Assembly: GCA_002730875.1 (NCBI GenBank)
Contig: PCBI01000018.1
Span: forward strand, 129,001 to 193,000
Reading direction: 5' to 3'
Length of the DNA: 64,000 nucleotides
Origin: Spirochaetaceae bacterium
Lineage (GTDB): Bacteria; Spirochaetota; Leptospiria; Leptospirales; Leptonemataceae
Position numbers and translations under genes: made by a program. Numbering within the stretch: the first letter of the stretch is position 1; each line of letters begins with the position of its first letter. Positions 6,113 through 22,830 of the stretch are shown here, piece by piece. The notes under the pieces are model-generated. The model was not told the DNA's origin. It made no database searches and saw only the letters and a list, made by a program, of their open reading frames with translations.

Positions 6113-8031
6113 GTACTCGTTCGTCCACAGAATTCCGCCTGGAGCGAAGATTCCACGTAAGGATTTACTTCTTCACGGCGCTGGTTCTTTTTCTGTCCGT
6201 AGTATGCGTTCTGCAACTGGGCAACCTGCAAGTGCTACACGGAGCGGAAAACCATGTGCTTTCGCGAAAATTTGTAAGCAAGCAAGAGTTCAAAGAGGCG
6301 CCCCGAGGATTCATTTACGATCGAAACATGAATCTGGACAAACCTCTGGTTCAGAACATCCTGTACATTGACTTTAATATGTATCCGGGCCGGTTCAAGA
6401 CCCGGGAAGAAGGCGTTGAATTCCTGAAACGTTTCTGCGCCATCATGGGCTATCCGCTTGCGAAATATGCCGACATTCTGGAACCGGATAAGTGGAAGGA
6501 GCTTTCGCGCAAAAACGAAGAGGTAACCCTGGTCCACCGACTCAGCCGGGCGCAGCAGGTGCGGCTGGCCAGCCTGCAACTGCCAGGCAGCAAGACTCAG
6601 TTCGTCACTCGATTCCTGCGCTACTACACCATGGGACCCGCGCTGGCCCATGTTACCGGCTATACGGGCTCGCCTTCAAAACGCGAAATTAAAGAAGGAA
6701 AAGCACTGCCCTACCAGACCCTGGGAAAGGCCGGTGTGGAAGATTTCTACGATACGGATCTTCGCGGGAAAGATGGCATTCTGGTGCGAAACAAGGTGCT
6801 GGACAGCGAAGAAACCATCGAACGGAGCCAGCAGGGGAATCATTTAATACTGAACATAGATCGCAACGTCCAGGCCGCCGCCTACGAAGCGCTCATCAAG
6901 AGCGGCAAGCGCGGAGCCGCCATCGCCATTCGACCGGCCACCGGCGAAGTAATGGCCCTGGTTTCGGCGCCCACATACGATCCGAACATCCTTTCCAGCG
7001 GCACCGGCGATGTTCGATCCGAACACATTCGCAAAGTACGTCTTTACAATGGATTCTTGAACCTGGCCATACAGACCAAGTTTCCGCCCGCCTCTACATT
7101 CAAACCCCTGGTGGCCCTGGCGGGGCTGGAATCCTTTCCCGATGACTTCGTAAGCAAGCGAACCAAGTTCCATTGTCCTGGACGCTGGAGCCTGGAAAGC
7201 TCGGTGGCCGGCGTTCCGGATAGCGTCTACTACTGCCACAAGGCTTCCGGTCATGGAATGAACAATATGATCGGCGCCATTGCCCATAGCTGTAACGTGT
7301 ACTTTTACAGGCTGGGCTATAAAATTGGCCCCACTCCCATAATAGAGTTATCTAAAGCTCTGGGCCTGGATAAGAAAAGCGGAATTGATCTACCCGGCGA
7401 AGTGCAGGGATTCGTGCCGGATCAGAAATGGAAACAGATTACCTGGTCCAGTCGATGGTACGACGGCGATACAATCAACCTGTCTATTGGACAGGGATTT
7501 ATGCAAACGACCCCCATCGAACTTGCTGTGATGTATGCGGCCATCCTGAACGGCGGAAAAGTGCTCCGTCCGCACGTGTTGCGCGAAGTGCGAGATTCCT
7601 ATAACGGTAGAATCGTACGAAAGGTTCGTCCCGAGAAAATAGCCGAGGTTCCTCTGTCGCGCAATCATATAGAAACCATCGAAAAAGGAATGCGGGCCGT
7701 GGTCACTGCGGGTACCGCCAGCTACCTGAACCGAAAAGATATGGTGCCGGTGGCCGGAAAGACCGGAACTGCACAGACCCGGAGCGAACGGACCGGTCGT
7801 GACCATGCCTGGTTCGTGGGATTTGCTCCCTATGGAGCGCCAGTGGAAGAGCAGATGGTGGTGGTAATCTTCGTGGAATACGGTGTGGCGGGATCCTATT
7901 CGGCGGCGCCAGTGGCCATGAAGATGTTTGAAGCGGCGTACCCGAATTGGGATCGTCCGCTACCGGAAGATCCGGCGAAAGAGATGGCCATTCATCCAGA
8001 ACACAATGAATCTCCGGAGCTACAGCAATAG
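6109..8031 (+). CDS. mrdA: Penicillin-binding protein 2 (elongasome transpeptidase)
   Basis: 640 residues. A single N-terminal membrane anchor (about residues 17-39), a pedestal/dimerisation domain (ENHVLSRKFVSKQ, PRGFIYDRN) and the transpeptidase domain. Catalytic motifs are intact: S329-T-F-K, S394-C-N and K551-T-G-T. The enzyme cross-links new peptidoglycan side-wall strands together with RodA. The short C-terminal tail after about residue 620 (LPEDPAKEMAIHPE) is charged. It overlaps mreD by 4 bases. A 118-base gap with no convincing gene separates it from rodA. Confidence 0.96.
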   Translation: MSTRSSTEFRLERRFHVRIYFFTALVLFLSVVCVLQLGNLQVLHGAENHVLSRKFVSKQEFKEAPRGFIYDRNMNLDKPLVQNILYIDFNMYPGRFKTREEGVEFLKRFCAIMGYPLAKYADILEPDKWKELSRKNEEVTLVHRLSRAQQVRLASLQLPGSKTQFVTRFLRYYTMGPALAHVTGYTGSPSKREIKEGKALPYQTLGKAGVEDFYDTDLRGKDGILVRNKVLDSEETIERSQQGNHLILNIDRNVQAAAYEALIKSGKRGAAIAIRPATGEVMALVSAPTYDPNILSSGTGDVRSEHIRKVRLYNGFLNLAIQTKFPPASTFKPLVALAGLESFPDDFVSKRTKFHCPGRWSLESSVAGVPDSVYYCHKASGHGMNNMIGAIAHSCNVYFYRLGYKIGPTPIIELSKALGLDKKSGIDLPGEVQGFVPDQKWKQITWSSRWYDGDTINLSIGQGFMQTTPIELAVMYAAILNGGKVLRPHVLREVRDSYNGRIVRKVRPEKIAEVPLSRNHIETIEKGMRAVVTAGTASYLNRKDMVPVAGKTGTAQTRSERTGRDHAWFVGFAPYGAPVEEQMVVVIFVEYGVAGSYSAAPVAMKMFEAAYPNWDRPLPEDPAKEMAIHPEHNESPELQQ

Positions 8032-18868: not shown

Positions 18869-21382
18869 TTATTCTTTGAAAATACCCGGCAGATCCGGCT
18901 GCATCAAATCCTTTCGCCTGAAATAGCCCGCGGGAGCCGCATATTGCCATACCTCTTCGAAGCAATCCAGGAGAAGCTGGCTATAATAGCTTATGCTATA
19001 GTCCGGCTGCCTGTCCGGTCTTGCGCCAAAGGTCTGAAAGGCCATTTCTTCCGACATGTAACGCGACGGGCCGGCGGTTTTTTCCAGCACCAGATATTTG
19101 ATCTTTTCGCCGGCCTGAATCTGTATACCATAGGGTTCCAGTTCCCGCAGGGCCGCCGGGGCTGGCCCGTCCACCGAATAGTCTTCCAGACCTTTGCTTA
19201 CCGTTCGACGAAGTAGTAAATCTGTCCAGGGCACCGTGCGATGTAACAGCGCCTTTTTGAAATCCAGATACAGGGCCTCCATCTCCGGATGCATGGATTC
19301 CAGTTCCCTTGCGGTCTTACATTCTGCCATCCGATCAAGAAAGCAGTCCTGCGCCTGTTTAATCCAGGAGGGACGGTCCTTCCTCCTTACGGAAATGCCT
19401 CGAACCCGAAGCGTTCCGTCCCGAAATCTCCCGAAATAGCGATTCACTACCGCAATACCGGGCTTTGTACGCGAAGGCAGAAAAATCACCCAGTCGTATA
19501 TACCTTCCAGACTCATCTCTATGCCGGTGACCTGTCCAATCTCCTGACATACCGCTTTTAAGTGTTCGTGTTCGAAAGATTCCCTTCTTTTCGAGAACCG
19601 GCCAGTGTTTTTCTCGGGAATCTGCAGAAACAGGCAATCTGTAATTCCATGAATCACACGGTAACCGGCATCTTCAGCGATCTCCTTCGCCGTCAGAAGC
19701 TTGTCCCGACCGAAAGCAGTAACCGCTTCATGACTTTCGATCTTGCCGAATTTCGCATTACGGTACCCCAGATAGCCAAAGGAGGTAACCAGCATCCACT
19801 TCAGGCTGGACTGTCGGTGATCGTACAACTCCAGACTTCGCTCCAGGGATGCCCGCTTCTGCTCCAGGAACTGTTGCCCGTTCGGTGGCAACGGCTCGTT
19901 TTCCATACGGGACCTGTACCTTTCCATCTCGCCTTTCAGGCTTTTGATTTGATCTTTGTAATACTTCCGGCGTTTCAGGATGTGCGATAATGCATCCGAT
20001 ACAATTCCACGACGGCGAGCGCAGATGCGAAAACCTATCTCCGGCACATGTTCCGTTTCTTCATTACTGCAACAGAGACAGTTGATAGTTTCCGGCGATA
20101 CATTGTGTATACTCATAATCGAAGGATACATCTGGGAAAAATCGATTTGAGCTACGTTTTCCATAATTCTACCGGCTCGAGGCACAAATACCAGACCGCC
20201 CTTGTCCGCTTCTAGAAGCTCCATGACGCTACGCGGCTGCTCCAGAGCGCTCTTCTGCCAGGGGACCAGATAATTCTTGCGCAGAGCCACCTCCGACTCA
20301 ATGGCCGTAAGCGCGGCGCCGGTAGAGGATCGAGAAAGTCTCTGTACCGGAATCCGGCTCAGTCGCGAAAGCTCCACGATACCCATCAACTGTGCTTCTT
20401 TGAAAACGAAAGAATTGGCGCTATCGATATGCCATCGGCCAAACAAAGGATAGGAAGGAGCTCGATAGATCCAGTTTCCATAAGTATTATAGCTGGTCCC
20501 TTCCGTTACTATCTTTCGACTGGAACCCGGCGATATGTCCCGATCCAGAAAAGGAATTATATGTTGTTTCTGATAAGCCTGGAACAATACCGGAAAAAGA
20601 ACCTGATCGCCGTAGGCAGACAGTATGATGTCCGGATCAGTCGAATGCAAAAACTGGTTCAAAGACTCCAGGTCGGCGGCCCGTAGATCGGTAGGCAGTT
20701 CCAGTTTGTTGTCATTGCACTCCAGCTGAATTCTCTGATCCGGCGTATGGAAGCTCTTACGCGAACCCGAAGACAGTATCTGCTGATAGGTAAGACGATG
20801 CCCGTAGTTAAGATTCATTTTGAGAATTCGCACGGGCGGTAAGGCAAAATCCAGATCGAACAAATCGTCCAGAGCCTGTACCCATTTCAGGTTATATACC
20901 GGACGACTGATCCTATGGGAATCGTTGGAAGAAGCAGGAGGCCCGATTCTCACAAGGGAAGCTTTCAATCGGCAAAGAGGAAAGATGCCTTTTTGCTGCA
21001 TATAGCCGGTGGGCACTTCGAAATCTGTATGAAACAGATCCATTTTTCCATACATTGCATATAGTCGACTGCGAATCCTTCGAAGCAAAGACGGACGACT
21101 TATCTGGATAGAGAGAACATCTACCAGGCGGTTTTCGTAGAATAGCTTTCGTTTTGTATAATGCGGCTTACCCTGAATGCCTTCCATTTCATGGAGTCGC
21201 CTGACCAGGTTTCTCAATGTGCTTTCGGGGCCTCGGGCATAGATCACCGGACAGAAGTGATCCCGGCACAGATAGAATTTTCCCTGCTCATCCAGAATAC
21301 ATAGATAGATCTGATCCTCTAGATGATAGATATCAAAGAGCCATCCGCGGATCCGTATTTCTTCTGCCACCGAACGCTCCAT
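18869..21382 (-). CDS. Family-B DNA polymerase lacking exonuclease motifs (PolB2-like)
   Basis: 837 residues. Polymerase motifs are partly conserved: motif A VAQIDFSQMYPSIMS with D414, motif B LKWMLVTSFGYLGYRNAKFG with K528, and motif C as HGITDCLFLQ with D582. In motif C the usual YxDTDS has lost its first Asp but keeps the second, catalytic one. In the N-terminal half the exonuclease acidic residues are not apparent: where Exo I (DIE) is expected there is LKMNLNYGHRL, and Exo II reads DPDIILSAYGDQVLF (D249) without the usual N/D pair. This pattern resembles the PolB2 branch linked to damage tolerance in archaea. The gene follows the 88-aa gene by 75 bases. Confidence 0.85.
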   Translation of the reverse strand: MERSVAEEIRIRGWLFDIYHLEDQIYLCILDEQGKFYLCRDHFCPVIYARGPESTLRNLVRRLHEMEGIQGKPHYTKRKLFYENRLVDVLSIQISRPSLLRRIRSRLYAMYGKMDLFHTDFEVPTGYMQQKGIFPLCRLKASLVRIGPPASSNDSHRISRPVYNLKWVQALDDLFDLDFALPPVRILKMNLNYGHRLTYQQILSSGSRKSFHTPDQRIQLECNDNKLELPTDLRAADLESLNQFLHSTDPDIILSAYGDQVLFPVLFQAYQKQHIIPFLDRDISPGSSRKIVTEGTSYNTYGNWIYRAPSYPLFGRWHIDSANSFVFKEAQLMGIVELSRLSRIPVQRLSRSSTGAALTAIESEVALRKNYLVPWQKSALEQPRSVMELLEADKGGLVFVPRAGRIMENVAQIDFSQMYPSIMSIHNVSPETINCLCCSNEETEHVPEIGFRICARRRGIVSDALSHILKRRKYYKDQIKSLKGEMERYRSRMENEPLPPNGQQFLEQKRASLERSLELYDHRQSSLKWMLVTSFGYLGYRNAKFGKIESHEAVTAFGRDKLLTAKEIAEDAGYRVIHGITDCLFLQIPEKNTGRFSKRRESFEHEHLKAVCQEIGQVTGIEMSLEGIYDWVIFLPSRTKPGIAVVNRYFGRFRDGTLRVRGISVRRKDRPSWIKQAQDCFLDRMAECKTARELESMHPEMEALYLDFKKALLHRTVPWTDLLLRRTVSKGLEDYSVDGPAPAALRELEPYGIQIQAGEKIKYLVLEKTAGPSRYMSEEMAFQTFGARPDRQPDYSISYYSQLLLDCFEEVWQYAAPAGYFRRKDLMQPDLPGIFKE

Positions 21383-21457
21383 CCTTCTCTACATCTACTC
21401 GCCAATCCATCAGGCCTTTCCATCCAGGTATGCAGACTGGCCCTGACAACGCCCGGT

Positions 21458-21724
21458 TCAGGCCCCCGAAGAATGCTCCAGTTCATCCAATCGCTTTTCC
21501 AGTTCTATAATCCTCTTATGCATTTCTATCATCATACTCATGGCCATAGAATCGAATGGATTGGGCTGAGCCGCCATTACGCCGACCTGAAGCTGAGCCC
21601 GAGCGGCCATCATAAGCGCATCAAAGGAATCCCGATCCTCTTTCCTGAGCGCTTTTCTGAATTTCGAAAACCTTTCGTATACGCTATCTACCAGATGCGA
21701 ATAAGGCTGTAATGTTCTTCCCAT
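21458..21724 (-). CDS. Small helical protein of the PolB module
   Basis: 88 residues, probably all helical, opening MGRTLQPYSHLVDSVYERF and then KFRKALRKEDRDSFDALMMA, and ending with a heptad-like HKRIIELEKRLDELEHS coiled coil. An SD-like GGAG lies 6 bases before the ATG. From memory, similar small proteins with an MGR-x(n)-RRALR pattern occur beside PolB-type polymerases and Rad55-like ATPases in haloarchaea and some bacteria; this needs a profile search. It sits between the RecA-like and polymerase genes on the same strand. A role as polymerase accessory or adaptor is inferred. The acid/base pattern suggests a dimer. Confidence 0.72.
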   Translation of the reverse strand: MGRTLQPYSHLVDSVYERFSKFRKALRKEDRDSFDALMMAARAQLQVGVMAAQPNPFDSMAMSMMIEMHKRIIELEKRLDELEHSSGA

Positions 21725-21814
21725 AGCAGGCTCCGTGATTAAACTTCATATAACGTATGGCATTAGTGGATCAAATGAAAGCGTATCTTTACGCTATCGC
21801 ATTAAAGACTGAGA

Positions 21815-22528
21815 TCAAAGCATGACGTTTTGCCCAACGGCCGTAGCCGGGCGATCAAACCTGGAAAAAGGAAGCGAGCGATTCCGCTTAAGGTTCATAT
21901 CTCGTAAAAAATACGAACGTTCCTCTTTTCTGGACTTCAAACCGTCCAACTGCCATTGATACCGGGTTAGAGAGCTGAAGGCGGAAAGAGCGCTACCGAA
22001 GAGCTTACTCCTATAAGAAGCGCTTTCCACTATAAGATAAGGGATTCCCGCTTCATTCCAGAGGGATAGTACCGAGGCCATTTTCTGAAGGAGGAAACGG
22101 GCTTCCTCTTCCTGTACATCGCCGTCAAAGAACTGCTTGCAGGGTGCGTAGATAAAGTACAGAGTCCGCCCGGGTTTTCGCCTTTCGCGATGCCACACAG
22201 CCCGAAAAAGATCCAGAATCTGGTAGGGCGTAAAAGCTCGCTGAATCTGAATGGACCGCAGCATTTCCTCCCCGGGTATTTCCCGGCGCAGAGCCTCATC
22301 CATAAGCTGAAAGGCGTTGAATCGAATCGCGCAATCTATGTTAAAGATTTCGTAACCGCTCTGCCAGAGATGCACCTGCAGAACGTGACTCAAGGGAAAG
22401 ATAGGCGAAGCTCCGTAAAGAAGGGCCGGCGAACGGCGATCCCAGAAATGGACGGATTGTACAGACTCCACCAGCAGATGAGAGGACATACCTGGACGGT
22501 CGGAAAATGACCGTCTTTTGTAAAGCAT
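21815..22528 (-). CDS. Degenerate RecA/Rad55-like ATPase of the PolB module
   Basis: 237 residues from the ATG at 22528 (an ATG at 22489, giving SSHLLVES, is an alternative). The layout follows RecA/Rad55 paralogues: a beta strand plus P-loop position LLYGASPIFPLSHVLQ, where G-x-x-G-x-G-K-T is eroded, then EIFNIDCAIRFNAFQLMDEA, and the Rad51-like strand IQIQRAFTPYQILDLFRAVW. A Walker B-like hydrophobic strand TLYFIYAPCKQFFD follows. The basic C-terminus (RKEERSYFLRDMNLKRNRSL) may bind DNA. ATP binding looks unlikely with no Walker A lysine. It is first in a three-gene minus-strand module with the small helical protein and PolB, analogous in composition to ImuA-type mutasome cassettes. Confidence 0.65.
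   Translation of the reverse strand: MLYKRRSFSDRPGMSSHLLVESVQSVHFWDRRSPALLYGASPIFPLSHVLQVHLWQSGYEIFNIDCAIRFNAFQLMDEALRREIPGEEMLRSIQIQRAFTPYQILDLFRAVWHRERRKPGRTLYFIYAPCKQFFDGDVQEEEARFLLQKMASVLSLWNEAGIPYLIVESASYRSKLFGSALSAFSSLTRYQWQLDGLKSRKEERSYFLRDMNLKRNRSLPFSRFDRPATAVGQNVML
22495..22515 (-). promoter_or_regulatory. Inverted repeat at the start of the RecA-like gene
   Basis: A perfect palindrome of 7-bp arms, GACGGTC (22495-22501) and GACCGTC (22509-22515), with a 7-base spacer. It lies within the first codons if the start is 22528, or just upstream if the start is 22489. A repressor site for the PolB module is possible; the regulator is unknown. Confidence 0.4.
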
Positions 22529-22830
22529 ATATATGACGGCTGCCCCTTAAAAAGCAGAAATTCTACGGACTCCAAAGAGCCCCTCCTTTTACATCCGCCG
22601 TTTCGCCCCGCCTATGAATTATGTCGCATTCTATCCCATCGCGCACGAACTCCTGCCACATTCTGTCACAGCCTGAATGTATACTTATCGGGGGGCTAGA
22701 ATCGCGTATCAACCGTCCAGGACTATCTGCGGCGGCCTCATGACTGGGAACCTAACAATCGGGAGCCTCAGTACCGGGAGCCGGGCCGAAAAAAATGCAG
22801 GATCCACACCCTCCGACCACGGAAAACAGA
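22529..22830. other. 302-base intergenic region, promoter of the PolB module and a small repeat
   Basis: No credible gene is seen here. The end near 22529 must hold the promoter of the minus-strand PolB module. The far end (22741-22785) has three tandem 15-base units sharing the core GGGAxCC (TGACTGGGAACCTAA, CAATCGGGAGCCTCA, GTACCGGGAGCCGGG), just downstream of the esterase stop. The middle has no recognisable structure. Confidence 0.6.

Follow-up and report, generated by a model that had tools for sequence, protein, structure and literature searches.

What is a family-B DNA polymerase with an altered active site doing beside a small helical protein and a broken RecA-like ATPase in a bacterium of the Leptospira class? 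The three genes lie on the minus strand of the 64,000-nucleotide stretch of DNA that we analyzed as a whole (hereafter, the window), from a Spirochaetaceae bacterium genome. An earlier note on this DNA had read them as a PolB2-like damage-tolerance module, and had proposed that the module is a bacterial counterpart of the ImuA-ImuB-DnaE2 cassette, built on an unrelated polymerase. We asked whether the locus is a system in its own right or a copy of one already described. The reading frames were confirmed where the note had placed them, and the features discussed below are collected in Table 1.

Table 1. Features of the PolB2 locus and of related loci, with coordinates in the window unless another locus is named.
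Feature	Coordinates	Strand	Remarks
iRadA, Rad51/RadA-family protein without Walker A	21815-22528	minus	ORF of 237 aa; probable start 22489 (224 aa)
PPB2 (arCOG07300-type), small helical protein	21458-21724	minus	88 aa; N-terminal MGRT
PolB2 (bacterial group G2), family-B DNA polymerase	18869-21382	minus	837 aa; genus-specific insertions
Motif C HGITDC codons (H578-C583)	19628-19645	minus	position computed from ORF coordinates
D(K/R)GG motif codons (D393-K394-G395-G396)	20195-20206	minus	position computed from ORF coordinates
Conserved stretch upstream of the probable iRadA start, CATATATATGCTTTACAAAAGA	22490-22540	minus	by-eye comparison of four sister genomes
Copy of GGATTATGTCNCATT	22616-22630		1 mismatch
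GTACA-N7-TGTAC palindromes	L041 about 7074-7090; L046 2183-2228		candidate LexA operators
Trio on phage-deposited and IMG/VR records	L028 5183-8439; L029 5225-8277; L110 9192-12256; L111 9192-12256		
PolB2 with genus-specific insertions, second example	L032 7953-10805		
SRAP-like ORF adjoining PolB2 (G022)	L153 4828-5439		read from sequence only
SRAP-like ORF adjoining umuDC (G016)	L149 2581-3210		read from sequence only

Makarova et al. 2014 (PMC4104785) reported, from archaea and from several bacteria, an operon of PolB2, arCOG07300 and an inactive RadA, in some cases together with lexA. Timinskas et al. 2025 (PMC11791011) renamed the two partners PPB2 and iRadA and modeled a PolB2-PPB2-iRadA heteropentamer – one PolB2, one iRadA and three PPB2 – for 40 complexes. 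According to the same study, iRadA-PPB2-PolB2 is the sole gene order in bacteria, PPB2 starts with a conserved MGRT arm, and PolB2 carries a D(K/R) motif, has in most cases lost the first Asp of DxD and has an inactive exonuclease (PMC11791011). A 2026 survey assigns bacterial PolB2 to group G2, in which the DnaQ-like domain is inactivated (PMC12926913). Every published hallmark that we tested is present in the window, and we therefore identify the locus as a PolB2 mutasome operon. It is a bacterial copy of a known operon of archaeal origin – a well-preserved further example rather than a new system – and the match to these hallmarks supports the proposal of a damage-tolerance module.

The polymerase is matched by the Pfam DNA_pol_B model (PF00136, E 4e-30) and, under their equivalog cut-offs, by the NCBIfam archaeal type-B polymerase models (E 3e-104). 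Its AlphaFold model has a pLDDT of 87. When we aligned the protein with proofreading-type B polymerases (L113, L116, L126 and Escherichia coli Pol II, L131), DIE of Exo I was replaced by NLN, F-D of Exo II by V-L, and Y-x3-D of Exo III by F-x3-E. As judged from these substitutions, the 3'-5' exonuclease has lost all of its motifs and is dead; the missing Exo I and degraded Exo II had been noted before, and Exo III proves to be lost as well. Motif C reads HGITDC, as claimed earlier, against YGDTDS or YSDTDS in the proofreading-type enzymes, so that the first Asp of DxD is an Ile while D582 is retained. D393 and G395 of the D(K/R)GG motif, which is predicted to contact the PPB2 arm (PMC11791011), are invariant in 29 relatives. 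The clamp-binding motif pattern finds no match at the C-terminus of the window polymerase (QPDLPGIFKE) and is matched by 8 of 30 relatives; a beta-clamp motif in PolB2 or iRadA occurs in a fraction of PolB2 mutasome members. Polymerases of the window's genus also contain long lineage-specific insertions, both in the fingers and downstream of motif C, giving lengths of 837-950 aa versus about 765.

Losing the first Asp of DxD along with all three exonuclease motifs is what might be expected of a catalytically dead PolB2 kept for a structural or regulatory role, and inactivation was indeed inferred in early papers (PMC4104785). We nevertheless regard this reading as highly unlikely, because the remaining catalytic residues, D414, K528 and D582, are all intact in the window – as the earlier note had stated – and invariant across the 29 aligned archaeal and bacterial relatives. 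Moreover, the PolB2 of archaea, in which the first Asp is lost too, is stated to be an active polymerase (PMC11791011).

Both proposed partners of this presumably active PolB2, the 88-aa helical protein and the Rad55-like protein without a Walker A motif, are present. The latter, iRadA, shows LLYGASPIFPLSH at the expected Walker A position. Searches of Pfam and the PDB with its sequence alone gave no match, but a profile of 41 family members matches solved RadA (E 4e-13), with DMC1/Rad51 below that, and 12 of the 41 members match Pfam Rad51. Foldseek searches with its AlphaFold model (pLDDT 85) return RadA and DMC1 with probability 1.00 and E about 3e-10. The alignments used for structure modeling contained no phage sequences. 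Translation of iRadA probably begins at the Met at 22489 (MSSHLLVES...) rather than at 22528, since homologous DNA of a sister genome (G004) has an in-frame TAG upstream of that Met and since the model shows disorder over residues 1-12; we have corrected the start accordingly. PPB2 has no significant match among solved structures. Its MGRT start is shared without change by 15 Leptospirae and phage homologues and is almost fully conserved among the archaeal homologues.

The window genes follow the order iRadA-PPB2-PolB2, and a neighborhood search found that homologues of the polymerase nearly always adjoin the other two genes. Of the named Leptospirae-type loci, 26 of 27 carry the full trio in the same order and on one strand, as do 7 of 8 loci from other bacteria and 27 of 44 from archaea. 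Several of the misses are truncated by contig ends or may reflect partners too divergent for the profiles. The archaeal relatives were recovered using profiles built from Leptospirae, and the trio is kept from Leptospirae to Bathyarchaeota. The one Leptospirae-type exception (L033, the same match as G007) has no recognized partners and a transposase-like ORF upstream; PolB2 likewise stands without recognized partners in G024. Because the three genes recur together, in order and on one strand across loci, we do not attribute the arrangement to chance.

Phylogenetic analysis placed the window polymerase inside a PolB2 clade (SH-aLRT 100) with E. coli Pol II far off, so the clustering with Pol II that would have spoken against the module was not found. 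Within the clade, bacterial (95) and archaeal (89) sequences form separate halves, in agreement with the published view of a single PolB2 transfer from archaea to bacteria. This 72-sequence tree is a quick build with several long branches, and the names of metagenome bins in it are not always reliable: L056 is titled Hydrogenedentota, yet its genome (G306) is identical in size, score and match position to a genome of the window's class (G044). The window polymerase groups with its genus within Leptospirae, and its close named relatives are metagenome bins labeled Leptospiraceae, Leptospirales and Turneriella. Of 48 genomes sampled from the window's class, that of Leptospira, 35 have PolB2, and none of the 248 other genomes of the phylum sample has it. 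Among the spirochaetes sampled, the operon is thus a trait of the Leptospira class.

Copies of the operon also occur on mobile elements. Two phage-deposited Leptospira records hold the complete trio: KF114880, which is 89.6 kb long and also has genes for ParA/ParB and for portal-like and baseplate J-like proteins, and KF114878. The trio is likewise complete on two IMG/VR contigs; records KF114879 and KX656785, in which the polymerase alone was examined, carry it at the same 42.8% identity. RHS, cytochrome and lipoprotein genes are present on KF114878 too. This record is possibly a chromosomal island rather than a phage, so only the KF114880-type record can be called 'phage-borne' with reasonable security. 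These occurrences raise the idea that the window copy belongs to, and works for, a prophage or plasmid, which we judge most improbable. On our reading of the ORFs, the window trio is flanked by housekeeping-type genes, one mnmA-like (upstream on the map) and others resembling flavin reductase and esterase genes, with no integrase or phage structural genes seen near it. Orthologues occur in genomes of the same genus, and the mobile copies included in the 72-sequence tree nest inside Leptospirae. An independent joining of a PolB and a RecA-like protein into a new system convergent with ImuA-ImuB-DnaE2, which the shared outline of a RecA-like protein plus a low-fidelity polymerase might suggest, deserves next to no credence, as each of the three proteins has its homologue in the archaeal trio and the gene order is kept (PMC4104785, PMC11791011); the 'unrelated counterpart' of the earlier note is this same operon, whose presence in bacteria was pointed out in 2014 (PMC4104785) and which was modeled in 2025 (PMC11791011).

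Having identified the window locus as a PolB2 mutasome operon, we examined how it might be regulated. A conserved stretch precedes the probable iRadA start; the homologous DNA of G004, with its in-frame TAG, is noncoding, and the stretch is a probable promoter/operator. Within the window's genus lexA is located elsewhere, away from the operon. We compared the promoters of lexA, recA and iRadA by eye in four to five sister genomes of the genus: the lexA promoter contains GTAACTTTTGTTAC (GTAACTTATGTTAC in the window genome), the iRadA promoter contains a different conserved element, and no box common to the three promoters was recognized. Nor did we recognize a LexA box upstream of the window operon. 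A separate candidate, GGATTATGTCNCATT, lies upstream of both lexA and iRadA but was rejected as a common damage operator. It occurs in 11-16 exact copies per genome in five same-genus genomes (G000-G004; reversed control, 0), often clustered at intervals of about 33-35 bp. We take it to be a dispersed intergenic repeat, because its copies are clustered and also lie beside flhF-, glycine-cleavage- and rpsB-like ORFs, labels that come from reading the ORF starts.

A different arrangement is found in two Turneriella-type genomes (G033 and G041), in which the PolB2 operon and a LexA-family (Peptidase_S24) gene are divergently oriented. Between iRadA and this lexA-like gene are exact GTACA-N7-TGTAC palindromes, one in L041 and two in L046, and among 228 loci the palindrome was found only in the loci of these two genomes. 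The palindromes are candidate LexA operators, and their position facing a lexA-like gene may be a new lead. S24 matches are similarly close to PolB2 and divergent in three further genomes (G032, G037 and G045).

We also considered how PolB2 relates to umuDC within the class. An adjacent S24/Y-family pair of the umuDC type is present in seven class genomes. PolB2 is absent from 6 of these 7, versus 7 of the 41 without umuDC (Fisher p 8e-4), a count in which four of the six PolB2-less genomes come from one genus and some genomes are incomplete, leaving about three independent events. A partial exclusion of PolB2 and umuDC in Leptospirae is therefore suggestive only, though possibly a new lead. 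Together with the copies on mobile elements, this partial exclusion suggests that PolB2 fills the role of Pol V. Adding the divergent lexA-like genes and shared palindromes of some lineages, we tentatively propose, at slightly less than even confidence, that in the Leptospira class the PolB2 mutasome replaces Pol V as the inducible mutagenic polymerase. As a separate observation, an SRAP-like ORF (abasic-site protection) adjoins PolB2 in one genome and umuDC in another.

Overall, the locus is very probably a bacterial PolB2 mutasome operon of archaeal ancestry whose products most likely act as one damage-tolerance complex, with mutation as the cost. Against this reading stand the unrecognized LexA box, the clamp-binding pattern that the C-terminus of the window polymerase does not match, and the related genomes G007 (L033) and G024, in which PolB2 has no recognized partners. 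In the proposed mechanism, PolB2, PPB2 and iRadA would assemble into a single complex, as the literature and the models of others lead us to infer. The ATPase-dead iRadA would dock onto PolB2 through a motif like that used in RadA oligomerization, and one MGRT arm of a PPB2 trimer would reach the cleft between PolB2 and iRadA, and the DNA. PolB2, using the motif A Asp, the second Asp of motif C and the motif B Lys, would extend mismatched or lesion-containing primer ends without proofreading, permitting survival of DNA damage at a mutational cost. In Sulfolobus, Dpo2 is induced by DNA damage and accounts alone for targeted mutagenesis (PMC7390963). By analogy with that enzyme, the bacterial copy may have translesion activity and be inducible, and primer extension past lesions, without proofreading, is the most likely activity of the bacterial complex. 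The papers cited here describe no experiments on bacterial PolB2. Our results place an archaeal-type PolB2 mutasome firmly in one spirochaete class, that of Leptospira, and this class offers a bacterial setting in which the function of the mutasome could be tested.

Comparison with known systems clarifies where the window operon belongs. The ImuA-ImuB-DnaE2 cassette contains a family-C DnaE2 and a Y-family-like ImuB, whereas the window polymerase belongs to family B; the window genome has a single Y-family match, a DinB-like ORF on contig C6. A likeness to mutasomes that combine a recombinase with a polymerase, Pol V among them, has already been drawn (PMC11791011): in the published models, Pol V (UmuC/RecA) resembles the PolB2 complex in joining a polymerase, a recombinase-type protein and an arm of a small subunit. 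UmuC is, however, a Y-family enzyme and its RecA is active, and neither polymerase nor small subunit is homologous to the PolB2 trio. E. coli Pol II (PolB, group G1) shares the family-B fold and palm motifs with the window polymerase but has DIET, NVVQFD, YNLKDC and YGDTDS, none of which the window polymerase contains, and branches far away. The Dpo2/PolB2 operon of Sulfolobus islandicus (PMC7390963, PMC11791011) has the three families and the substituted motif C in common with the window; it differs in its archaeal host and regulators, and damage induction has been demonstrated for Sulfolobus. Bacterial G2 mutasome operons (PMC11791011, PMC12926913), such as Leptospirillum ferriphilum LFML04_0990-0993 (PMC4104785), differ from the window in that some have an adjacent lexA, which the window genome lacks, and in that the window's genus has the extra PolB2 insertions. 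With these operons the window shares the gene order and the three families and, likewise, MGRT, D(K/R)GG, the lost first Asp of DxD, the dead exonuclease and the dead RadA.
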